Shown: positions 2,966-45,208 of the stretch, in pieces
How the letters are laid out: every line of letters starts with the position of its first letter
Position numbering within the stretch: position 1 is the stretch's first letter
Source: Neelides folsomi
Taxonomy: Eukaryota; Arthropoda; Collembola; Neelipleona; Neelidae
Length of the DNA stretch: 64,000 bases
Assembly: GCA_034687125.1 (NCBI GenBank)
Contig: JAQGBZ010000264.1
Coordinates: forward strand, 1-64,000
Direction: 5' to 3'
Translations under genes and position numbers: made by a program
The notes under the pieces: model-generated
The model's input: the letters and a program-made list of their open reading frames with translations, nothing else
Told to the model about the DNA's origin: nothing
Databases searched by the model: none

Positions 2966-3764
2966 TTCATTGTACGAAGATAGAAGAATATTACAGCCAA
3001 ATATTTCATTATACTTTTATTATATTCCAATAATTGATGGAGGAGACGGGGGAGTTTTGGTATTTTCTAGCTTTGTTGGGTTACATCCAGTGCTCCATCC
3101 GGCATTGCCAGATGCCTTTTAATGCCAGATGACAAAATACCAAATGCAATCTGGCACATACCAGATGCCAGTTTAAGGAACTGTTAGAATTATTTGAGAA
3201 ATATTTTATACAAATGACAGAAAGTCGAAACTTTAAAATTCACAGGCTTTTTTTGTTATTCAAAAATTATTTTTCTTTGGAATTAGAATAATTATTCTAT
3301 CTAAATACTTAATGTTAGTTAAGAAAAGCTATAAATGAGTATTAAAATCTATCGTGTCATACATTTTAAGTGATTCAATCTCTTTGGAATTGGATCGGTA
3401 TTCGGTACTTACAAACAAGCTTTAGCCATAAAGGCAGCAATGAGCCACAAAGGCTTCGCCGCGCAGCCAGCGAGGCTATTATATTAAGTTATCTTTATAC
3501 CTATCTTCAAAGGGGAGAACAAAATATGAATTTTAAATATTTTAATTTATAGTGGATAGCTAAAAACTAATTGATTTTAACGATTTTAATTATTTTTTTA
3601 TTTGCTTTACTTTCAATGTAAATATTGAATTCACATTTTTAAATAATTTATAGAAATTATTTTGATATCACAAAAATAGCCAATTATTCAATATGATTAG
3701 ATTTGTTGATAAGTGATTGGATATTGCTTAATTATAATTTATCAGTTTTGTCCTCATTAAAAAA
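2966..3764. other. Intergenic; degenerate CCAGATGCC repeats, upstream region of IR gene
   Basis: At 3100-3172 several imperfect direct copies of a (T/G)CCAGATGCC motif occur, some inverted (ATCTGGCA). Around 3430-3480 there is a short GC-rich island (CTTCGCCGCGCAGCCAGCG) unlike its surroundings, probably a repeat scrap; the 60-codon frame across it (3370-3552) resembles nothing I know. The remainder is AT-rich upstream sequence of the receptor gene. Confidence 0.45.
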
Positions 3765-6197
3765 ATGTATTTAAATTTTTGTGATAATTTTTTCCCCTCA
3801 AATCTGTTTAAAGTAAATTTTCTCAAGTTATTAATAGTTTTACAAATAATTTATGTTGGAGCTTTGGCTCATTTTAACTCATTTGAACATACCGATACAA
3901 ATACATTTTATAAAAACGTTTCGTTTTATTTAAGAATTCTTGGAAACTGTGATATTCATTTAATAAGATTACTTGATTTCAATTCGGTGAGAGATGTTGG
4001 TTTATTTAATAATTATATTAACTTTTATTCCAATTACTTGAAGTCAATCGTTACAATCAACTCTGATTATATTGACAAGATTCGATCAGACTTTAATGAT
4101 CCTCATGGTGAATATTTATATCAAATAAAAAATGCAGTTAATATTCCAAAATTGTATAACAATTGTAGAGCTATACTTTTAATATCCGATAAAATATTCA
4201 AAAACGACGTAGACATGCTGATCTTACAATATCAATTGATTACCATAAGGATTAGATTATCAATTTCGGTAAACGATATTTTTGTTATTGCTTTTGTTGG
4301 AAATCTGCAGAAGATAGTTGAAACTCAAAATTGGCAAACAATTTTAGATGCATATAAAAGACAATTATACTCACTTTATAACGATTTCAACAGTTTTAAT
4401 TATCCAGCTGACTGCCATGCAATTTATGCAATTTCGAATAAAATTCAAGAAATTCCTTCTCGAATATACACATTAAATAGTTTTATTAAATTTATAAACA
4501 TTGAAAAGGAAAGCCGTAGGAACATTTGGAGAAAATTTCATTCAAATTTAAAACTTTGCATGGAGCCAATTAATATGAAGGTGAATAAGATTGATAAACT
4601 GAATTTAAATAATTTAATAAATATATTATTCTGCATTGGTGATTGCAAAGACTTTGAAGGTGCCGTGTTAACTAATAGTAAAATCAAATTTAATAAGATT
4701 TTAGGAAATGACCAAAAATTTCAAACAAATCAATGTCAAATGTTATCAAAATTTCCGCATTTAATTGATCAGAATTACTGTTTTATGATCACGGCAGCCG
4801 TGAGATTAAATTTTTCATTAAATCCCACTGAATATAATGGGAAAGATGTGATTATAAGAGTTGGCTGGGGGAAAACTTCGCATTCAGTTTTAAAATCAAT
4901 TTATATTGTGGAAAAGAATAAAAATTTCACAAGAAGGACTACAAGGCAATATTATACAACACCAGCGACGAGAGATCAATTTACATTTACAAAATATATA
5001 AATAAAAATAAAATTATCAATTATGCAATTATGTATCGGCCGTATGAAATAAGCGTTTGGATTTCAATTTGTGTCTCATTTGTTTTTATTTTTGTTACTA
5101 TGAAAATTATATGTTCAATTAGTCCGAAAAATCTTAATTTAGTTTTAATTAATTACACGATTTCATTATCAATAATAATTGAACAATCAAATTGCAAATT
5201 ACAAAATTTTTCAAAACTAAAATGTTCGCTATTTATTTCGATTTTAATTTTAGCTGGATTTATTTTAAGTTCAGCATACAAAGGAAATATGTTTAAACTG
5301 ATGGTATACGATCCACCGCCAAAAATATTTCAAAAATTTGAATTATTGGGAAACTTTAATAAACACTTAATTTTTACAACTTCATTCAGGAGAGACCTTT
5401 TTGAAACAAATGATTTAAATAAATTGAATTTTAGTTCTCAAAATAAAAGTTATTATGATTATTATTTTGAAAGAACACAATCCTCATTTCTATTAAATCT
5501 GAAACATTCTTTAAGAAATAGCGAAACTGAATTAAAAAGTAAATTTCACCATTCAGTGCATTTGTTTTATGAATTTATGAATTTAATTGAATACATAAGG
5601 TTAAATAAACCATTGATAACAAACAAAGAATTTGTCAAAATGCCAAATGTATTTTATTATGTGGATACCACAACGAATTGCCTCAATTTTGAAAAATTGA
5701 TTCGATTTTATTATCCAAATAAATATTACATCGTCAATCAATTTGAGTATGAACCTAAATATTCTGTCACGACCTTTTTTAATTATGCAACAAATACACA
5801 AATTAAATATGAAATGGAGCTTCTTCGATTGCGAATTATTGAATCAGGAATTTACAGGATGTGGACTGAAGGTTACACTAGCAATTTGGTTTTAGCACCT
5901 TCAAAATCTCTTTTAATTGATAAAGATTATTTAAAATTGCGATCCTGGAATCGCAAGAATTACGATAAAATTAATACATTTAAAAATTTAAAGAGATCCA
6001 AGGATGAATATGATCCTAAGCCATTAAAAGTAAGGAAGTTGTTGCCATTTTTTGTCATTTATATTGTATTATTTCTCATTGCCTTTTACATTTTAATCGG
6101 GGAATTTATTTCTTTAGTTAGCCTTGTTCAAATGTCTGATATTTTTATTTCAATAATCAATTTGATAAAAAATAAACTAATTAAACTTTTAAAATAA
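3765..6197 (+). CDS. Divergent ionotropic receptor (IR) family chemoreceptor-like channel, intronless
   Basis: Seen: one uninterrupted 810-codon frame without introns. Hydrophobic segments sit where an ionotropic glutamate-receptor-type channel would have them: a leader near residues 20-35, M1 about 428-450, a pore-like stretch about 458-472, M3 about 487-504 ending LSSAYKGN, and M4 about 760-783. The part between M3 and M4 would form ligand-binding lobe S2. No typical glutamate-binding Arg/Asp pair can be recognised with confidence. Family knowledge: divergent arthropod IRs act with co-receptors in taste or smell and are often intronless and recently expanded. Neighbours: decayed relatives at 1870-2811, 7150-7311 and 44550-45208 show a birth-and-death cluster. 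The start is the first Met of the frame. Family assignment is fairly safe; ligand and tissue are unknown. Confidence 0.75.
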   Translation: MYLNFCDNFFPSNLFKVNFLKLLIVLQIIYVGALAHFNSFEHTDTNTFYKNVSFYLRILGNCDIHLIRLLDFNSVRDVGLFNNYINFYSNYLKSIVTINSDYIDKIRSDFNDPHGEYLYQIKNAVNIPKLYNNCRAILLISDKIFKNDVDMLILQYQLITIRIRLSISVNDIFVIAFVGNLQKIVETQNWQTILDAYKRQLYSLYNDFNSFNYPADCHAIYAISNKIQEIPSRIYTLNSFIKFINIEKESRRNIWRKFHSNLKLCMEPINMKVNKIDKLNLNNLINILFCIGDCKDFEGAVLTNSKIKFNKILGNDQKFQTNQCQMLSKFPHLIDQNYCFMITAAVRLNFSLNPTEYNGKDVIIRVGWGKTSHSVLKSIYIVEKNKNFTRRTTRQYYTTPATRDQFTFTKYINKNKIINYAIMYRPYEISVWISICVSFVFIFVTMKIICSISPKNLNLVLINYTISLSIIIEQSNCKLQNFSKLKCSLFISILILAGFILSSAYKGNMFKLMVYDPPPKIFQKFELLGNFNKHLIFTTSFRRDLFETNDLNKLNFSSQNKSYYDYYFERTQSSFLLNLKHSLRNSETELKSKFHHSVHLFYEFMNLIEYIRLNKPLITNKEFVKMPNVFYYVDTTTNCLNFEKLIRFYYPNKYYIVNQFEYEPKYSVTTFFNYATNTQIKYEMELLRLRIIESGIYRMWTEGYTSNLVLAPSKSLLIDKDYLKLRSWNRKNYDKINTFKNLKRSKDEYDPKPLKVRKLLPFFVIYIVLFLIAFYILIGEFISLVSLVQMSDIFISIINLIKNKLIKLLK

Positions 6198-8038: not shown

Positions 8039-9297
8039 TCAGTCTGTTATAACTTTATTAGAATATATTTCTTTAAGTTTATTATGAAGACAAAAAATAT
8101 CAGGAATTAATGTTTTCCCCCTATCCAAATCAATAAAGATTCCTGTAAATTCTTCATCTGTTAAACTTTCACTTGAATTTGATTTGCACCAATTGGACCA
8201 AAAATCTCTTTGTCCGAAGAAATGAGTGTTGACCAATTGATACAAATTGATGGCCGCGTTGTGAACAAGTTCGTAATATTCGCGAAGTAATCCGGTGAAG
8301 AAAACATCTTCAGCCCAAAAGAAAGGAATAGAATTCCTCACTGAATATTCAGCCATTAAAGCTTTTCTGGTTGAAATGGACGCGGGACCCAAACAGAAAT
8401 CGGGGAAATAATATCTTGAATATTCTTTATAAGAAACATAAACATGGCTTTTAGGATCTCTAATTGGCATTTCTTTTGAATAAATCCAACAACCGAAATG
8501 ACCAATCGACTCATTTTTAATTTGTGGCTCCATGTGAGAAATAAATTTAATCATTTTAAATATGTCGGGAAAAACGTCATCGTCAATCTGTTTATAAAGT
8601 TAAATATATTAATTAATTAATTAATTATAATTATTATTTATAATGAGAATTGATTTTAATATTTGTATTTTAGTATAAATGTATAATTAATGAGTTAATT
8701 TCAGTTAATAACCTTTAATATGTATTTAGCATTTGGACAATGATCAATTATCCATTTAGAACTTAAAAGTCTTTTATAAGACAAATTCTTATAAGTGTCA
8801 ATGAAATTCCCCATGATTAAATCTTCATATGCAAAATTTTCTTGGATTAATTTCGTGTCACGTGTAAAATTATCAGACGCTTCGACTCCAATCAAAAACA
8901 CATTGGCGAATATGAAATTTTCGTAAATTAAAGTTTTCCCCCAAGTTTTTCTTATTGCTTGACGCATTTCAAAATCTTTACTTTGGACAAATTGTGTTGA
9001 GATAATTAAAGTTTGATTTATTAATCTGTTCCAACACTGAGAAATATTCCCATTCAAAATTATTTCAATTTCAAAATTGTCGTGCTTACATTTTTTAATG
9101 AGTTTATTAATTTTTAATTTAGGAATAAGATTTTTAAAATATTTCGAATGAAGAAAAACCGTCGTGGCAACCCAAATGCAAGAGATTACAATCAACTGTA
9201 ATTATCAAAAACAATTAATTTCTAATAAATGATTAAATCTTATCATTTGTTATAAAAATAATCCAATTACCATTTTTCTCTTAGACCAATTCACCAT
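8039..9297 (-). CDS. Beta-1,3-galactosyltransferase-like protein (GT31), copy 1
   Basis: Role by family: a Golgi type II membrane enzyme adding galactose or GlcNAc from a UDP-sugar to glycans. Seen: three exons, 9297-9271, 9195-8713 and 8587-8039, all phase 0, giving 352 aa. The first exon encodes MVNWSKRKM, the cytoplasmic tail; the second opens with the membrane anchor (LIVISCIWVATTVFLHS) and carries the GT31 motifs MRQAIRKTWG, VFLIG and NFIDTYKNLSYKR. The split YILK|IDDDVFP contains the DxD metal-nucleotide site (residues 172-174). FPDFCLGPASISTRKA and the EDVFFTG catalytic motif follow. Neighbours: tandem copy 2 upstream at 9868-11065 and a third copy, opposite strand, at 39118-40384. Acceptor unknown. 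Confidence 0.88.
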
Positions 9298-9867: not shown

Positions 9868-11065
9868 TTAATTTATTAAACTTTTATTGGAATGTATTTC
9901 TTTAAATTTATTATGAAGACAATTAATATCAGAAATTAAAGTTTTTTGTTTTCCCAAATCCACAAATATTCCTGTAAAGGATTCATTTGTTAAACGTTCC
10001 GTTGTATTTGACTCGCACCATTTAATCCAAATGTGTCGTTTCCCATAGAAATGAGTTCCGACCAATTGATACAAATTGATTGCGACGTTGTGAAGAAGTT
10101 CATAATATTCACGAAGTAATCCAGTGACGAAAACATCTTCAGCCCAAAAGAAAGGAATGGAATTCCTCACTGAATATTCAGCAATTAAAGCTTTTCTGGT
10201 TGAAATTGACCCAGGACCTAAACAAAAATCTGGAAATATATTTCTGGGATATTCTTTAAGAGAAACATAAAGGTGATGTCTGGGATTTCGAATTGGGATT
10301 TCTTTTGTGTAAATCCAACAGCCGAAATGTCCAAGCGACTCGTTTTTAATTCTCGGCTCCATGTGGGAAATAAATTTAATTATTTTTATCACATCTGGAA
10401 AAATGTCGGCGTCGATCTGGTTATAAAATTATTATTATATTAAAATAGTTAAAATTGGGAATATTAAATTTTGTAAATTTTAATTAAAATACCTTCATTA
10501 TGTATTTAGCATTTGGGCAATGATCAATTATCCATTTATAAGTCGAAAGTCTTTTATAAGATAAATTTTTATATTTGTCAATGAAATTTCCCATTATTAA
10601 ATCTTCATATTTAAGATTTTCTTTTATTAGCTGCGTGTCACGTGTAATGTTATGCTTCGATTCAACACCAATAAAAAATACGGTGGTAAATATGAAGTTT
10701 TTGTAAATTAATGTTTTCCCCCAAGTGTTTCTTATTGCTTGACGCATTTCAAAATCTCTAGATTGGACAAATTGCGTTGTGACAATTAAAGTATGATTTG
10801 TTAAATTGCCATTACATTGTTGAATATTCCCATTCAATATAAATTCTATTTCAAAGTTTTGACTTTTAATAAAGCTGTTAATTTTTAATTGAGTTGTCAT
10901 AATTTGGAATAATTTTGAATGAAACAATATTGTTGTGGCAACACACGTTCCACAAATTAAAATCAACTGTAATTTTAAAAAATATAATTATTAATTTATA
11001 ACTTTTGGGGTTTAATTTAAATTTTTTTAATAACTTGCCATTTTTAATTTAGACCTCTTGGTCAT
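9868..11065 (-). CDS. Beta-1,3-galactosyltransferase-like protein (GT31), copy 2
   Basis: Seen: three phase-0 exons, 11065-11039, 10966-10493 and 10416-9868, giving 349 aa with the same design as copy 1: short tail MTKRSKLKM, anchor LILICGTCVATTILFHS, MRQAIRNTWG, VFFIG, NFIDKYKNLSYKR, EDVFVTG. Two differences stand out. The metal-site triplet is D-A-D (KIDADIF) instead of D-D-D, which still satisfies DxD. The first intron starts with GCAAGT, so it is a GC-AG intron where copies 1 and 3 have GTAATT. Family function as for copy 1. Frames are intact throughout, so it is probably active, though the middle Asp of the triplet is lost. Confidence 0.86.
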
Positions 11066-26192: not shown

Positions 26193-27052
26193 GTGTAAAG
26201 AATTTCAATTGTCGCTCGATACCTCTTTCGTAACTTTGAATCATTCCATTCATAAGTATGTACATACCAGTACTGCTTAATTATGTTACGTATGTATTGT
26301 AATACATATATATATGAAAATATTCATTCATATTTCCAAATTTGAGCTAACTAACTTTATTTAATTTAATTTTAATAGTGTTAATTGTATGGTATGATAT
26401 TTCATGGTTTGAGTTCAAGTTCAAAGTCTGCAAAAATTTGGTTCTGGTTGGTATATTGACGTCAGCAGTATAGGAAGTGAAAGCACTTGAAATAGGAATT
26501 TGATAATTGAATAAACACCATATCATTGATTTCATTCAAGAATTTGATTGATCGAGAAATCCAAGTAAAAAGTGTTAGACATGGATTCAGTTAAAGTTAA
26601 TTATGATTAGGAATATCCTTTTTATCTATTTTGTACGTACTCATAATTACGAACAGTTTCACGAAGCTTAGCACGTGCATACAATCGGTAATTATAATTA
26701 CGCAAAAGGAAGAAAAATGCAATTGAACAATGCCGATTTTCTATCAATTAATTAAATCTAGTTAATTTCCTTTCAATTTTAATTTTTTAAAAATTTGCGT
26801 ATTGGTTTCAAATACAAACAAGTCGAATTGCGTTTGAGTGTTTATTTGGACTTTAATAAAAAAATAATTAGGAAAGGCGTGAAAGATAATTAGAAAGATA
26901 ATTAATTTTGTGTTTTAAAATGATAAATGTTATCAGGTGTTATCTGGATAAAATACATAAATTGGAGAAACCCTTTGGCTCTTCAATCAATTAATGAATT
27001 TCACTAAGAGGAGAAACACCAAACACAATTAGTAGTTAAGTAGACATTCAAA

Positions 27053-28468
27053 ATGTCTTTTTTATTTAAAGTTTTGATTCTCACATTTTGCATTGGTTTC
27101 CAATTGCAGTCTGCGATAGCAAAACCCAACACGCATGCTTCAATCCACCGAATTCGGGATCCTTCCCTTCATCGAAATGTCGTTGAGGAAGATTTAAACA
27201 AACGACTTACTTGGCCACCAAAATGGCCAACATGGCCACCAAGAACCACAACCACCACCACAACAACTCAAGCACCAACAACTCGTCGCCATCCAACTTG
27301 GCCAACATTGCCAACCAAATGGCCAACATGGCCAGCGTGGCCAACCAAGAAAACCACCACGACCACCACAACCGAAGCCCCAACAGAACCACCCACAACT
27401 CGTCGTCGTCCAACTTGGCCAACTTTACCAACAAAATGGCCAACATGGCCAGCATGGCCAACCAAGAAAACCACCACGACCACCACAACCGAAGCCCCAA
27501 CCGAACCACCCACAACTCGTCGTCATCCAACTTGGCCAACTTTACCAACAAAATGGCCAACATGGCCAGCATGGCCAACAAAAAAGACCACCACTACCAC
27601 CACCACAACTGAAGCTCCAACAGAAGCCCCAACAGAAGCCCCAACTGAGGCTCCGACAGAGGCTCCAACAGAAGCCCCAACAGAAGCCCCAACTGAGGCT
27701 CCAACTGAGGCTCCAACTGAGGCTCCAACTGAGGCTCCAACTGAGGCTCCAACTGAGGCTCCAACCGATGCCCCAACCGATGCCCCAACCACAACCAGAC
27801 GTCCACATCCAACTTGGCCAACTTTGCCAACCAAATGGCCAACATGGCCAACATGGCCAACTTGGCCAACAAGAAAGACTACGACCACAACCACCACAAC
27901 CGAAGCCCCAACAGAACCACCAACCGATGCCCCAACCGAGGCTCCAACCGATGCCCCAACTGATGCACCAACCACGACAAGACGTCCTCATCCAACTTGG
28001 CCAACCTTACCAACAAAATGGCCAACATGGCCAACATGGCCAACTTGGCCAACAAGAAAGACTACGACCACAACCACCACAACTCAGGCACCAACTGAGG
28101 CTCCAACTCAGGCACCAACCACAAGACCAACAACAACGGCCAAGCCAACAACAACCGCTAAGCCAACAACGACAACTCAAGCTCCCACAACCACAACAAA
28201 GAAGACGACGACCACAACAGTGAAAACCACCACAAAACCTCCATCTTGCCCAACAGTCGATTGCAAGAAATTGTCCAATGGAAACTATGCCAATCCAAGT
28301 GATTGCACAAGTTTCATTTCATGCTCGGGTGGAAACAAATACGTGATGGATTGCCCATCTAATCTTCATTACAATACCAAGCTCGGAGTTTGCGATTGGC
28401 CACAAAATGCTAATTGTAGATCTTGCGATAGCGAAAGTGGATCTTCTGGTTCTGACTCATCAGATTAA
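27053..28468 (+). CDS. Secreted Thr/Pro/Trp-rich mucin-like protein with one CBM14 chitin-binding domain
   Basis: Role by family: extracellular chitin-associated protein of the peritrophic matrix or cuticle. Seen: a single 471-codon exon. Signal peptide about residues 1-24 (ending LQSAIA). Residues about 50-390 are repeats: PTWPTLPTKWPTWPAWPTK blocks alternate with T-rich runs and a long EAPT array (about 14 units). The C-terminus has a single peritrophin-A/CBM14 domain with six cysteines (CPTVDC, NPSDCTSFISC, CDWPQNANC) and ends in an acidic Ser-rich tail. Threonine runs are likely O-glycosylated. Intronless, and codon-rich in C and A, unlike the AT-rich neighbours. Length is likely polymorphic. 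Strong call for the domain; anatomical site inferred. Confidence 0.92.
   Translation: MSFLFKVLILTFCIGFQLQSAIAKPNTHASIHRIRDPSLHRNVVEEDLNKRLTWPPKWPTWPPRTTTTTTTTQAPTTRRHPTWPTLPTKWPTWPAWPTKKTTTTTTTEAPTEPPTTRRRPTWPTLPTKWPTWPAWPTKKTTTTTTTEAPTEPPTTRRHPTWPTLPTKWPTWPAWPTKKTTTTTTTTEAPTEAPTEAPTEAPTEAPTEAPTEAPTEAPTEAPTEAPTEAPTEAPTEAPTDAPTDAPTTTRRPHPTWPTLPTKWPTWPTWPTWPTRKTTTTTTTTEAPTEPPTDAPTEAPTDAPTDAPTTTRRPHPTWPTLPTKWPTWPTWPTWPTRKTTTTTTTTQAPTEAPTQAPTTRPTTTAKPTTTAKPTTTTQAPTTTTKKTTTTTVKTTTKPPSCPTVDCKKLSNGNYANPSDCTSFISCSGGNKYVMDCPSNLHYNTKLGVCDWPQNANCRSCDSESGSSGSDSSD
27230..28130 (+). repeat. Coding tandem repeats in the mucin gene
   Basis: Three near-identical units of about 120 bp (27290-27600), an array of 12-bp GAGGCTCCAACT-like units (27612-27790), then two further copies of a longer unit (27795-28090) that share the WPTLPTKWPTWPTWPTWPT segment. 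Confidence 0.9.
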
Positions 28469-34320: not shown

Positions 34321-34901
34321 GTAATTTTAAATTGCATTTTTTTCTATCAATCCACCTCAAATTGTTCAGAATGAGGAACCACATCCAATGATGGAGATTC
34401 TTCTACTACCTATTATTAATTGTAAAATGAAAGTATTTATATAAATATTATGCATGGACAAGTGCATGAAAATAAGGAACAGAATAGAGAAAATTGTCAA
34501 CTGTTGGGTCGTTGGATTATTGTCAATTAGGACTAAATTTTGATTTGAGCATGTGTCAGTATACATGTAATGTTATATCGGTCAATTGTAGTGCAGATGC
34601 GAAACGTTCGGAGCCGAGTGGAATTATTCCAGCATAACAATATTAACACATAAGGTTGTTATTGTCCTCGTAGCATAAGTTCCCTAGACCTTTTTTTAAA
34701 TCTAACCCTTAAAAATTGAAAATAATAGAATCCCAGAAATTTTCTATTCAATTTTCATAAAAATGCACAAATTAATTGTGGATCGCTATTCAAAGATTTA
34801 AAAAGGACTAATAATGATAAAAAAGTGTTTTAATCAACTATAATAAAAAAATTAAGAATTCCTAATCCATAATATACATATTTTATTATCCCTACTAATA
34901 T

Positions 34902-35526
34902 TCAGGATACAGCCCTTGGGTTTCCCGGATATGGAGGCGGCGGATCTTCATGAACTAAATATTATTTTAATAATAATTTAATCATAATTTAATTATAAAA
35001 TTATTGTCATCACATATTGGATTTTGAATATAAAATGAACCTCTTTGAGAATTCTGGACCCAACTGTGTGTTGATGCAAATCTTGGATTATAATTTTGAT
35101 TTACAATATAATAACTTTCTTGTGCAGAAATGACTCCAATTCCTCTTGAATTCTCGTTTGTATTTGTAATTCGTGCGTCATGAACAATACTCCATCCTGG
35201 TTGCCGCTGGCGATTCATTTCAAATGCACTATCTCGATTGCTCTCATAAATTATCACATTTCCTAAAGTGCATTAAAATGATTCATCATTAATTCATTAA
35301 TCACTTTCATTAAATAAAATAAAGTTAAGTTAATAAATTTAATTTAAAACTTGTTTCTATTAATTATTCTAATTAATATTTTACCTATTGAACGTTGTGG
35401 TCCTCCAGTATCTTCAAGACTGTCAGTTCTCATTCTACCAAAGAAGAATTTATAAATGAAATAAATTGTCAAAGCGAAGAACAAAATGGTACTTATAATT
35501 ATCACAATGTCATATGCAGTATTCAT
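34902..35526 (-). CDS. Small single-pass membrane protein with C-terminal PPxY motif, copy A
   Basis: Seen: three exons, 35526-35385, 35262-35014 and 34954-34902 (142, 249 and 53 nt), both introns phase 1, giving 147 aa. Residues about 6-29 are a hydrophobic helix (DIVIIISTILFFALTIYFIY) followed by a basic KFFFGRMR, so the long C-terminal part should be cytoplasmic. It is polar and Asn/Ser/Gln-rich, and ends HEDPPPPYPGNPRAVS. Family knowledge: PPPPY-type PPxY motifs recruit WW domains, notably of NEDD4-family ubiquitin ligases. Retaining intron 2 would end the protein after CDDNNFIIKL without the motif. Copy B (36174-36803) has the same exon plan. No known family recognised; an adaptor or sorting role is inference. 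Confidence 0.65.
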
Positions 35527-36173
35527 TATTAATTATAATCTCATTTAATTCCAAATTTGAACTAATAACAATTAGAGTGAAAACAGTATTGGATTTAATT
35601 ATAATAAACAGTAAGCAGAAATGCTAAATGTTTCAAATAAAATGAAAATAATATTTCCTGACGTACTTCAATCTGGATTCAATTTTAATTGAAGCATCAA
35701 ATGTTCGAATAATTGAAATAATTGAATGTTAACTGTAAATCATTCGGCGATAAAATATGACGTCCAAATAGGGCAAAACAATTCAAATCATATCTTATTG
35801 AATAGCATACAAATTTATTATTTTGGCATAGAGTTCTCATTATCATATTCTTCACATTGTGTATGGTATTTCTGATATACATATAACTATAGAAATTTTC
35901 AGATATTATAATCTACATAATAAAAGGATGATTCATTTTATCGCTAATGCTTGTGGATATAACAAAACGTATTTAACATTGTCACCTTGAATGATAAAAT
36001 ATTTGCCTTTATCAGTCTTAACAATTTTAAATTACATAAATACAAGAAAATAACAGATGTAGAATTATGAACGGCAACGGTTTTATTCAATAATGTTTAA
36101 TGTAATATCAAAGATATTGATAATTATCATATAAATACTTGTATTATATTCTGTTCGCTTTTTGAATTATTTT

Positions 36174-36803
36174 TCATATATGATGAATTGTTCCAGGATA
36201 AGGAGGTGGAGGATCTTCCCACTCTGTATATAAATAAAAACATTACCTTTAATTTAAAACTTCATAATTAAGAATTTAAGAAATCAAATTAAAGGAATTA
36301 AATAAAGTTAAAAATGAGTTAAGTTATTAAGATAAGAATTTCTCATTGAAGTTAATTCATTTGCGGGTATTACTTGTATTAAAGTTGGGCCTCCGTGGAT
36401 ATAAAGACGCTTCGCAAATTGTCCTTTGTTCATTTAAAATGTTTATGGGATTTGTTCGCATATTTAAATTAGAAAAATTCGGACACCTCTGGGGAGAATT
36501 GAAATCGATTTCATTATTCATTGAACTGTTTGTATTCTGAGACATCTCGACATTGACTATCAAGTGTAAAACAGTTAAAAGTTAAAATTGACCAAAAATT
36601 TTGGTTTTTTTTTCAATTTTGAGCCAATAATTTTAAAAAGAAAAAGAACCTCTTGAATTTTGATATAAATTTTCGTTAATTCTTTTTTGATATTTACATT
36701 CGTATTTGCATATCCTTATAAGAACATTAATAAGGACAATAATAAACAGAAAACTGATTGGCATGGAAATGCTAAGAATGTCATTGGGGGTAATTTCGGC
36801 CAT
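36174..36803 (-). CDS. Small single-pass membrane protein with C-terminal PPxY motif, copy B
   Basis: Seen: exons 36803-36650, 36556-36374 and 36223-36174 (154, 183 and 50 nt), again both introns phase 1, giving 128 aa. A short N-terminal segment (MAEITPNDILSIS) leads into a helix (FLFIIVLINVLI), then a basic Cys-containing stretch RICKYECKYQKR that could be palmitoylated. The middle is Asn-rich and unlike copy A except in character; the last exon encodes WEDPPPPYPGTIHHI, sharing EDPPPPYPG exactly with copy A. Reading through intron 2 stops after SNTRK without the motif. The conserved tail on its own small exon in two otherwise diverged paralogues points to selection on the PPxY element. Confidence 0.65.
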
Positions 36804-39117: not shown

Positions 39118-40384
39118 ATGCAGAGTTTGTCTAATAGAAAAATGGTAATTAACAAATTAACACAATTAGTTAAATAAAAAATTTAATCATTATTTCAATA
39201 TATAATAAGAATAATCTTTCGTATAATTTCAGCTAATTGCAATTGCTGGCATTTGTATTGTCACATTTTTATTCTCGCATTCAAAATACTTCCAGAACCT
39301 TGAATATCAATTAAAAATTGACAAACTCGTTAAAAAGAACAAGAGCGGAAGTTTTGAAGTTAAAATAATTCTGAATGGGAATATTCCGCAATGTAGAGAC
39401 AAATTACCAAATCGCACATTAATTATCTCAACACAATTTGTCCAAAGTAAAGATTTTGAAATGCGTCAAGCAATAAGAAAAACATGGGGAAAAACTTTAA
39501 TTTACAAAAACTTCATTTTCTCCAATGTGTTTTTAATTGGAGAATCAGAAAATTCGACAATTGACGAGAAATTAATTAAAGAAAATTTTGAATACCAAGA
39601 TTTAATTGTTGGAAATTTCATTGACACTTATAAGAATTTGTCTTATAAAAGACTTTTAAGTTTTAAATGGATAATTGATCATTGTCCAAATGCTAAATAC
39701 ATATTAAAGGTTATTAACTGAAATTAACTCATTAATTAGACATTTATACTAAAATACAAATATTAAAATCAATTCTCAATTATAAATAATAATTACAAAT
39801 AATTAATTAATTAATATATTTAACTTTATAAACAGATTGACGATGACGTTTTTCCTGACATATTTAAAATGATTAAATTTATTTCCCACATGGAGCCACA
39901 AATTAAAAATGAGTCGATTGGTCATTTCGGTTGTTGGATTTATTCAAGAGATAAACCGATTCGCGATCCAGAAAGTAAACATTATGTTTCCAATGAAGAA
40001 TATTCAAGATATTATTTCCCAGATTTCTGTTTGGGTCCCGCATCTATTTCAACCAGAAAAGCGTTATTTGCCGAATATTCAGTAAGGAATTCCATTCCGT
40101 TCTTTTGGACCGAAGATGTTTTCTTTACTGGATTACTTCGCGAATATTACGAACTTGTTCACAACGAGGCAATCAATTTGTATCAATTGGACAACGCTCA
40201 TTTCTATGGTCAAAAAGATTATTGGATCAAATGGTGCGAATCAAACCGAACGGAAAATCTAACAAAGGAAGAATTTACAGGAATTTTTATTCATTTGGAA
40301 CATGAAAAAACTTTAATTTCTGATATTTTTTGTCTTCATAATAAACTTAAAGAAATAAATGGGAATAAAAATATTATAAATTAA
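39118..40384 (+). CDS. Beta-1,3-galactosyltransferase-like protein (GT31), copy 3
   Basis: Seen: three phase-0 exons, 39118-39144, 39233-39709 and 39836-40384, giving 350 aa. Tail MQSLSNRKM, anchor LIAIAGICIVTFLFSHSKY, then MRQAIRKTWG, VFLIG, NFIDTYKNLSYKR, KIDDDVFP (metal site split by intron 2, as in copies 1 and 2), FPDFCLGPASISTRKA and EDVFFTG. It is closest to copy 1 by eye (long identical stretches in exon 3, and similar intron 2), although it lies 29 kb away on the other strand. Function by family as for copy 1. Its 5' end has been duplicated (37700-37940). Confidence 0.88.
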
Positions 40385-41388: not shown

Positions 41389-43886
41389 ATGAGTTCCTGT
41401 GACGATTGTATGTTCAAAATGGGAGAATGGTGGTGCAATTTATTTATGAGGTTAGGACAATTACAAGCAATTGTTAATTATAGTTGATTCACTCTCAACT
41501 GGCCGGTGAAAATTGAATCATGTTACTTGATTAGTTATTTGAAGTTAAAATAAACCGATATTTAGTTACATTTAAATGTACTAATAATTTTCTGGTGACA
41601 TGAAATTCTATTCCCCGGTCAATTAACATGATTCACTTTTCACCGGTCAGTTGAAAGTGAATGAACTTTTTTTATAAACATTAACATTAAATATTTATTT
41701 TTATTTTTAATTGTTTTAATACATTTATTAAAAATGTTTAATCGGAATTAAGACTGATTTTAATTAATTTCAGGTGGAGACTTTGGATTCGCCCTTTTGT
41801 AATATTAGGCTACATCATTATCTTAATCGGACTTTTGCCATTTCTTGTCATTAACTGCTTTGGGACTGAATGTAACAATCAGCAAAGGACAATTCTCATC
41901 GGAGGTTCAAATTAACAATTAAATAAAAAATCCAATTTTAAATATCAGTTCAATGTCAAATGTCAGTCCAATGTTAAAGTCAGTCCAATTCAATGTTTAA
42001 ATAGTTAACGGTTATAAATTAAAAATTAAGCTTAATAAAGTAAATAATTTTAATTTGTAGGAATTTTCGCTTTGATGGCTCTTCCTATCAATTTCTACGA
42101 ACTCACTCAGCACCTCGTTCACTATACAAAACCGGATCTTCAAAAACACGTCATACGGTACTACATTCTTATAGTTAAATTAAATTAAAGAATTTTAATT
42201 AAAATTAAAATATTAACAAAATTAACAAAATTAATTTAATTATTTATTTTGCAGAATTCTTTGGATGGTTCCAATTTACGCTTTAGATGCCGTAAGTTAA
42301 TTATTTATATTTTTGACAATTTGTCTCTTGTTGAAGTTAATTAACTATTTAATTTGCAATTAAGTTAATTAAGATCAGAATGTTTATTAATTAATATTTT
42401 TTTATTTCCAGTGGCTTGGTCTTTTGGCTCCTCAGTATTCGATCTTCGCTAATAGTTTGCGCGAGACTTATGAAGCCTACGTAATTTACAACTTTATGAA
42501 ATTCCTCCTTAATTATTTGAATGCTGAAATGGATTTGGAAGCGACGTTGGAATTGAAGCAGCAAGTGAAACATCTTTTCCCACTTTGTTGTATTCGGGAT
42601 TGGGAAATGGGAAGGGAATTTGTGCACAAGTGCAAACATGGAATTCTTCAATACACAGTCATTAGACCAATTACAACCGCTATCGCTTTGTAAGTTAAAC
42701 TTTGTAATTTAGTCAAATAATTAATTCTCTAATAACTTCAATTTAACAATTTAACTTCAATTTAGCTTTTAAACAGATGATTTATAATGAATGATGTAAA
42801 TTCATGATTTCTTAATCAATGTTATTTTCAGCATTTGTGAATTGTGTGGAGTTTACGGTGAAGATGAATTTCGTGCCGATGTTGCTTTCCCGTACATTAT
42901 TGCAGTAAATAACATTTCGCAAGGAATAGCAATGTACTGTTTAGTTCTATTCTACAAAGCAAGCAAAGATGAATTGGCGCCGATGAGACCTTTAGGGAAA
43001 TTCTTGTGCATTAAAGCCGTCGTTTTCTTTTCATTCTTGTAAGTTCAATTAAATTAAAGTGATTCTTGAACTTAATTAAGTAATTTTATCACTTACAATT
43101 TTTTACAATCAATTTACATCACTTGTTAGTTGTTAGTTAATTTAATAATTATTTTAATAGCCAAGGAGTTGCCATTTCAATTCTTGTCAACACGGGTGTC
43201 ATCACAAACCAAATATTTGGAACGACGGATAAAACCGATGTGAAAGATGTTTCCTCAAGTTTACAAAATTTCTTAATTTGCATCGAAATGTTTTTCGCGG
43301 CCATTGCCCATCATTACGCTTTCTCCTACAAGGCTTACATTGACTTAGCTGCAGATCAACCTAATTGTTGCGAAAGCTTTTGTCAAATGTGGGATGTTTC
43401 CGATGTGAGAAAAGATCTTGAAGAACATTATGGAGTTGTTAGTAAGTGAAAATATTAATTAATAAACTCAACTTTATTTAAATAATAATAACTTGATACT
43501 TAATAAAGTTAAAAAGAACTGAAGTTAATTAAAGTAAATTTAAAATTTTGTTAAAATTAATTAAATTAATTAAAATTGGTTAATATTGATTAATTAAAAT
43601 TTTTATAATTTTAGAGAGCACAGTGAAGAATGTAATTCCATCAAAGCGAGTTTACAGACATCCAGGTGGAGTTCGAACCGAAAGAGCTCGACTTTTATCT
43701 GCAGGGGAATCCACGGATTATCAAAGTGGAAGTGAAGAAATAATTCCTTCAACTTCGGGTGTTGTGAGATCGGCAAGTTTAACAATTTTAGCCGAAATCT
43801 CACCAATTTCTCCAACAAGTCCGCCGTCACCAGATGAACAAAATTTCACAGACCTCACAGAAGATCTCATTTCGGATTCTGAATAA
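41389..43886 (+). CDS. TMEM184C-like multi-pass membrane protein (OST-alpha family)
   Basis: Role by family: seven-helix membrane protein of the organic solute transporter alpha / TMEM184 group; TMEM184C itself has no settled function. Seen: eight exons, 41389-41450, 41774-41904, 42061-42157, 42255-42291, 42412-42689, 42832-43038, 43161-43441 and 43615-43886, closing in phase to 454 aa. Characteristic blocks follow the vertebrate protein closely: [113 protein letters not shown] and [10 protein letters not shown]. The cytoplasmic tail is Ser/Pro-rich and acidic. Orthology is very secure; transported ligand, if any, unknown. Confidence 0.94.
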
Positions 43887-44549: not shown

Positions 44550-45208
44550 CTAAAGATAAATCAAACATGAAATTGCCAAAAGTGAACATTCGATGATAAA
44601 AACAGGTAGAAACTTTCGAATGATTAAAGATGTTGGGTTGTAAGTTACAGGAGGTTTAAGTAAACTTCTAAATGTGTTAATTTTATCAAAATTAATTCTA
44701 TTCCATTTATTAGCTTTATTAAACTGAATTAGATTTTTTTGCATACTGTAAAAGGAGTCAATAATTAAATTTCCTTCTTCCCACATTTTATATATTCCAG
44801 ATGCAAACAGAGAATCAAAAATGAATTTGAACTTTTCATTAAAACTGGATTTAAAATTGAATTTAATAAAATAATAATCGGAATAACTCATTTTATAAGA
44901 TTTCAAATCCCGAACTTCTCTTTCTTTGATCATGTAATCATGCCGGGAAAATTGAATTCAAGATATATTTCATATTGATATATATATTTTCTCATATCTG
45001 TCTAATATAAAAAAGTTTGATGGAACTTTGGTTTGGCCCAAAGGTGTGGAAAAATATTTTCTAAATTATCAATAAGTTTATTTTCAAGTGGAATATGGAT
45101 AATTTTATCAGAAAATTCATTTTGAATCTCGTTATTAATTACCAAAGAAAATATATTTAAAACCTGGGAAATAATTGAAAGATTAAAATAAAAATTGAAA
45201 ATATGCAT
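44550..45208 (-). pseudogene. Ionotropic-receptor pseudogene (internal deletion)
   Basis: Seen: 44960-44550 encodes RHDYMIKEREVRDLKSY, SGIYKMWEEGN, NFDKINTFRSLLKPP and a final hydrophobic helix after RKFLPVFII. These match the S2-M4 part of the intact receptor (ESGIYRMWTEG, YDKINTFKNL, RKLLPFFVI). A separate upstream frame (45208-45002) begins MHIFNFYFNLSIISQV and could be the N-terminus of the same gene, but there is a stop between and the channel core is missing. Inference: a dead paralogue with a large internal deletion. Confidence 0.65.

Follow-up and report, generated by a model that had tools for sequence, protein, structure and literature searches.

Two neighboring gene models on the minus strand, which we refer to as genes A and B, lie head to tail within the 64,000-nt stretch of DNA analyzed here (the window), and both end in the same nine residues, EDPPPPYPG, containing a PPxY (PY) motif. 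This raises the question of whether they are genuine genes of common descent, what such a tail could do on a small membrane protein, and whether proteins of this kind have been described before. From the sequence, the two genes make a real-looking, albeit modest, case for a tandem pair of orphan membrane proteins with PY tails, and the evidence for this, together with the readings that compete with it, is set out below.

Gene Models and Coding Evidence

Each gene can be modeled with three exons, with all introns bounded by GT-AG and in phases 1,1, and the earlier note's description of two adjacent same-strand genes sharing an N-terminal helix and an identical exon plan is thus borne out by models that splice cleanly. 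In gene A, exon 1 (36650..36803, minus strand, as for all features of the pair) carries the start codon, an acidic 10-residue N-terminus, the helix SISMPISFLFIIVLINVLI and a basic juxtamembrane stretch, as judged from the splice model, hydropathy and the open frame; exon 2 (36374..36556; model and open frame) encodes an Asn-rich part that is predicted to be cytoplasmic; and exon 3 (36174..36223; pattern search and model) is the tail exon, which encodes WEDPPPPYPGTIHHI followed by a stop codon, with the EDPPPPYPG-coding motif placed at 36193..36218 by genome pattern search. The corresponding exons of gene B, supported in the same ways, encode the start codon, the residues MNTAYD, the helix IVIIISTILFFALTIYFIY and a juxtamembrane part (exon 1, 35385..35526), a Ser/Asn/Arg-rich part that is again predicted to be cytoplasmic (exon 2, 35014..35262), and the tail HEDPPPPYPGNPRAVS followed by a stop codon (exon 3, 34902..34954), with the motif at 34924..34949. 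The introns span 93 and 150 nt in gene A and 122 and 59 nt in gene B, and the predicted proteins comprise 128 residues (A, with exon 1 ending at 36650) and 147 residues (B). Describing the cytoplasmic parts as Asn/Ser-rich, as was done originally, suits A (17% Asn) better than B (11% Ser, 10% Asn). Candidate AATAAA poly(A) signals lie approximately 90 nt beyond the stop codon of gene A (36082..36087) and approximately 15 nt beyond that of gene B (34882..34887); both are weak candidates, as 18 AATAAA/ATTAAA hexamers occur in the 2.7 kb scanned.

Two details of the models deserve comment. An alternative first donor in gene A, GTAAAT at 36697, would give an exon 1 of 36803-36698 and a protein of 112 residues, also in phase 1, and looks more usual than the other first donor. 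However, inspection by eye of two galactosyltransferase copies in the window (see below) shows the donor AAG/GTTATT, such that GT-T donors seem to be in use here; for this reason, we make no choice between the two, and exon 1 could equally end at 36650 or 36698. At the 5' end of gene B, an in-frame stop lies ahead of the ATG with only two codons between them and no AG in that interval, which leaves no way for a coding exon to be spliced on ahead of this ATG. Gene A has AGs at -22 and -7, which would allow an upstream coding exon. We also considered the earlier proposal that retention of intron 2, which removes the motif, acts as a splice switch. This proposal finds no support, as an in-frame stop is expected in any case at the base composition of these introns (with probabilities from 0.81 for 59 nt to 0.99 for 150 nt), which makes stops in retained introns uninformative.

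The coding evidence is uneven. In composition-keeping single-base shuffles of the exons, a frame as open as that observed arises with frequencies of 0.013 (A, exon 1), 0.011 (A, exon 2), 0.020 (B, exon 1) and 0.001 (B, exon 2), values which overstate the case for coding, as the frames had been picked for their openness; the short tail exons are often open by chance (0.42 and 0.55 for A and B, respectively). The G+C content of the exons (0.28-0.57) contrasts with that of the four introns (0.10-0.22) and the flanks (0.23-0.27). Codon usage, trained on 18 long open reading frames (15,447 nt), does not support coding, with scores of 0.001 (A) and 0.010 (B) per codon, near the non-coding mean, and single exons scoring between -0.22 and 0.009. 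This test is, however, too weak to count against coding, as it separates its own training set poorly (training mean 0.07 per codon, compared to -0.01 to 0.02 for non-coding open stretches, with a spread of 0.08).

Elsewhere in the window, three very similar two-exon pairs of open reading frames (8039-9201, 9868-10987 and 39227-40384) make up a dispersed galactosyltransferase group, with 39824-40384 matching Pfam Galactosyl_T. An open frame of 819 codons (3738-6197, plus strand) contains several hydrophobic stretches and has a shorter look-alike at 44550-44957 (minus strand); neither shows a Pfam match near a cut-off, and both may resemble divergent ionotropic receptors. The window also contains a long Thr/Pro/Trp repeat protein with PT repeats and a C-terminal CBM_14 chitin-binding domain (27044-28468, plus strand), and two open reading frames that match the organic solute transporter Ost-alpha (42391-43449, plus strand).

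The Shared Tail and the Relationship between the Genes

The tail is the most distinctive feature of the pair. A search for all codon patterns encoding EDPPPPYPG across the genome (75.1 Mb in 840 contigs) returned two places with zero mismatches, namely genes A and B, and again just these two when up to two mismatches were allowed (counts that can be lower bounds), with the reversed-pattern control giving zero in both cases. The claim that the tail is exact in both proteins and sits on a last small exon is therefore upheld by both the translated models and the genome search. Four of the nine tail codons differ between the two genes, in each case silently and at the third position of a proline codon; this pattern speaks for selection acting on the peptide and counts against both a recent copy and gene conversion. 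Immediately after PPPPYPG the two proteins are unlike (TIHHI and NPRAVS).

The shorter string PPPYPG has 11 places in the genome, compared to one for the reversed pattern, and is present in several unrelated genes. Were these 11 places random, approximately 0.001 same-strand pairs within 1.3 kb would be expected, and the tails of A and B lie 1.27 kb apart; the one other close pair consists of two motifs 21 bases apart inside a single open reading frame (C587). We note that a separate PPPYPG tail exon is found at at least three of the 11 places, and is thus not unique to A and B. Still shorter PY strings, taken alone, are no signal: PPxY occurs three times in the window (4.1 expected), and PPPPY at 132 genome places compared to 125 for the reversed control.

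Apart from the tail, A and B have nothing recognizable in common. The full-length alignment of A and B beats all 5000 shuffles, but once the tail is removed 1950 of 5000 score as well, such that the remaining similarity is not above that of shuffled sequence; the same is true of exon 1 (1986), exon 2 (2034) and the 40 residues that close exon 2 (1719, each out of 5000). The BLASTP alignment is confined to a stretch that includes the tail (residues 91-123 in A, 116-141 in B; E 5e-6, as a single comparison), and at the DNA level the top match between the two gene regions is the tail itself (28 bases at 86%), with the remainder at E 0.001 or weaker. The middles had been described as diverged almost beyond recognition; the divergence is confirmed, but the qualifier is too generous, as they are fully unalignable. 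As the bodies are no more alike than shuffles, we infer a duplication from the tail, the common exon plan and the adjacency of the genes rather than from the bodies of the proteins.

Other PY Candidates in the Genome

Searching the genome by tblastn with each protein returned only the query gene itself (3/3 places each). The looser GAYCCNCCNCCNNNNTAY pattern has 19 genome places (reversed control 4), namely the A/B pair and 17 others, which we read as 701-base stretches, following the three that end soon past the motif approximately 2.2 kb upstream; no third copy was recognized by eye among these places or by tblastn. The motif on C10 (DPPPPYP, then a stop) sits where the G+C content is high (0.446), and no helix candidate there scores above 1.8; that on C754 (DPPPPYCNTL) has hydrophobic frames upstream to which no exon chain could be assigned. 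The place on C215 (YDPPPSYDQ; about 96.3-97.3 kb, minus strand) looks like a single-pass PY candidate in its own right, in which one exon encodes a helix (2.56) and the final exon, of approximately 37 residues, ends in YDPPPSYDQITQIKTT; it is not a copy of A or B. A coiled-coil-like open reading frame on C17 (about 201.6 kb), with PPPYPG and further P-x-Y motifs, presumably resembles angiomotin.

A further one-helix gene, with a Cys-rich helix end CLCCPICLLAKF, lies on C274 (about 9895-10702, minus strand). By eye, it has a stop just before its ATG, a phase 1 intron of ambiguous donor after a basic stretch, and three introns in total, the last of which is in phase 1 and directly precedes ELPPPYPG. 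This PPPYPG tail exon and the YDPPPSY tail on C215, both in the same genome, speak against treating the architecture of A and B as without parallel.

Topology and Proposed Action

In both translated models, a membrane helix and a PPxY motif are predicted on one polypeptide. The best 19-residue hydropathy window starts at residue 11 in A (score 2.46) and residue 7 in B (2.56), leaving 10 and 6 residues ahead of it, respectively. The net charge is -2 (A) and -1 (B) on the N-terminal side, compared to +3 (A) and 0 (B) over the next 15 residues on the C-terminal side. This charge bias suggests an N-out/C-in orientation with a cytosolic PY tail, more firmly for A than for B, where the juxtamembrane net charge is zero.

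Potential partners are encoded in the same genome, with WW domain matches at 21 places and HECT matches at 37. On C10, C113 and C129, WW and HECT matches lie close together on one strand, and we read these sets as three putative NEDD4-type ligases, which keeps the earlier assignment of the tail as a ligand of such ligases plausible. We note, however, that NEDD4 is just one option, as PPPPYP is also the core of a YAP ligand (PMC4301871), and the motif by itself does not discriminate between NEDD4-type and YAP-class partners.

Taking these observations into account, we propose that A and B would be old tandem duplicates that, if expressed, encode small single-pass membrane proteins of type III (N-out, C-in). 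Their cytoplasmic part would serve as a rapidly evolving and probably disordered spacer, with EDPPPPYPG, encoded by the final exon, presented to cytosolic WW domains. The helix would keep such an adaptor in the plasma or endosomal membrane, the tail would recruit a NEDD4-type ligase, and the ligase could then ubiquitinate the adaptor, an adjacent membrane cargo, or both. As a whole, this reading, in which A and B would act in the manner of Commissureless, CYYR1 or Rcr1, is one that we would accept about as readily as reject. As each protein has one PY motif, WW binding may be weak, since Commissureless (Comm) is described as having two (PMC12101832), and CYYR1, which is found at late endosomes, as binding WWP1 through three PPxY motifs, with the loss of one barely mattering and binding lost only when two are removed (PMC11399591).

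Weighing the Alternatives

The origin of the tails could be explained differently. They may have converged in neighboring orphan genes that are unrelated, or at least one of the models may not be a real gene, in line with the dissimilarity of A and B outside the tail, codon usage near the non-coding mean, the lack of PPxY enrichment in the window and PPPPY counts hardly above the genome control. However, convergence would have to produce two copies of a nine-residue string, otherwise unseen in the genome, on one strand, at a distance of 1.27 kb and after an intron of the same phase, and the G+C contrast between exons and introns, together with the open frames, speaks against spurious models; we therefore regard this explanation as very improbable. 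It is also conceivable, albeit doubtful, that A and B share ancestry with the one-helix gene on C274, taken in this case as Commissureless- or Shisa-like, and have since diverged so far that only the helix, the exon layout and the PPPYPG tail were retained. The C274 gene shares with them one helix, phase 1 introns and a separate PPPYPG tail exon, and its spliced protein gives a sub-threshold match to the Comm profile (19.2 bits, or 17.6 bits once the splicing was revised; cut-off 27). Other findings oppose such kinship: BLASTP aligns it best with B and A over PPPYPG (E 0.013 and 0.022, respectively, as single comparisons), it has one intron more than either gene, a genome search with its protein finds only itself (4/4 places), and it is not among the matches when the genome is searched with the Comm profile. 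Another reading, which we consider rather unlikely, is a minimal family in which selection would act solely on a membrane helix and on a WW tag of nine residues with a phase 1 exon to itself, while the middle could vary freely. This plan, in which phase 1 introns set off a loose middle from a helix exon on one side and a PPPYPG exon on the other, would have arisen or been kept repeatedly in this lineage, with C274 as a third case, and the proteins would be competing membrane decoys for WW proteins.

A separate alternative accepts the pair as proposed but changes the partner, with the tail tethering a YAP/Yorkie-class or other non-ligase WW protein (of the KIBRA or WWOX type) to a membrane without driving ubiquitination. 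In LATS1/2, the YAP ligands have PPPPYP as their core, and phage display with YAP-WW2 yielded AGRPPPPPYPGPPL 14 times within a set of 42 peptides (PMC4301871); in addition, WW matches exist on contigs without HECT matches, such as the three on C36. Set against this, several small one-helix PY proteins whose action is described as tested use NEDD4-type ligases, and the residues beyond the motif differ between A and B. Such an anchor is a possibility to be kept in mind, although we consider it unlikely, and we retain recruitment of a NEDD4-type ligase as the preferred reading.

Comparison with Known Systems

The earlier note knew of no described family with this architecture. This puts it too strongly, as Commissureless, yeast Rcr1/2, PRRG, Shisa-like proteins and CYYR1 are all described as combining a helix with cytoplasmic PY motifs. 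Commissureless genes form a tandem cluster, and the part of Comm ahead of the helix is far longer than in A or B. As predicted for A and B, the Commissureless proteins (Comm, Comm2 and Comm3) are short and transmembrane, lack a signal sequence, carry cytoplasmic PY motifs and show very low conservation elsewhere (PMC5578492). Unlike them, A and B have no Pfam Comm match, no LPSYDEAL-type motif and one PY motif rather than two. Specifically, Comm (PF15957) is unlisted up to E 1 for the long form of A and up to E 10 for its short form and for B, and the weak Pfam matches of the two proteins look like chance (WSS_VP for A, 13.1 bits with a cut-off of 24; DUF6768 for B, 12.2 bits with a cut-off of 27), and LPxY, part of the extended LPxYDEAL motif described for Comm (PMC5578492), is absent from both translated models. 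Across the whole genome, the Comm profile gave one place (C189, E 0.046) and none over the cut-off, and no convincing gene was seen by eye on the strand of that match.

The Shisa-like/STMC6 group (Shisa, CYYR1, WBP1, WBP1L, VOPP1 and TMEM92) is described as consisting of proposed transmembrane adaptors with one helix and a cytoplasmic PY tail, and in A and B, too, the motif is predicted to follow a single helix. They differ in having no signal peptide and no six-cysteine lumenal domain, with only 6 (B) or 10 (A) residues ahead of the helix window. The tested family features of both Comm and Shisa-like proteins are therefore absent from the predicted A and B proteins. Yeast Rcr1 and Rcr2, which we liken to A and B by description only, are described as Comm-like in overall structure, with a cytoplasmic PY motif that binds the NEDD4-type ligase Rsp5 (PMC5578492); their motifs are PPSY/VPEY. 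The plan alone does not predict function, since in a fly assay on Robo1 PRRG4 acted like Comm, which uses its PY motifs to bring Nedd4 and Robo1 together in a complex (PMC12101832), but CYYR, Shisa and Rcr did not (PMC5578492).

A literature text search, with coverage lying mostly outside subscription journals, returned PPPPYPG in four papers but the string DPPPPYPG in none, and no description of this pair among the matches listed. If A and B are expressed and bind WW domains, they would exemplify very small PY adaptors that are missed by sequence searches because just nine residues persist, and an exon plan combined with a short motif can flag relatives where similarity searches fail. Comm itself is described from insects, apart from a single candidate in C. 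elegans (PMC5578492, PMC12101832).

In their proposed role, A and B also resemble Ndfip1/2, described as PY adaptors of NEDD4-type ligases. Ndfip1/2 differ in that they contain three helices and carry their PY motifs toward the N-terminus. Thus, while the A/B pair itself matched no family model tried, small one-helix PY membrane proteins, the kind to which its predicted products would belong, are known.
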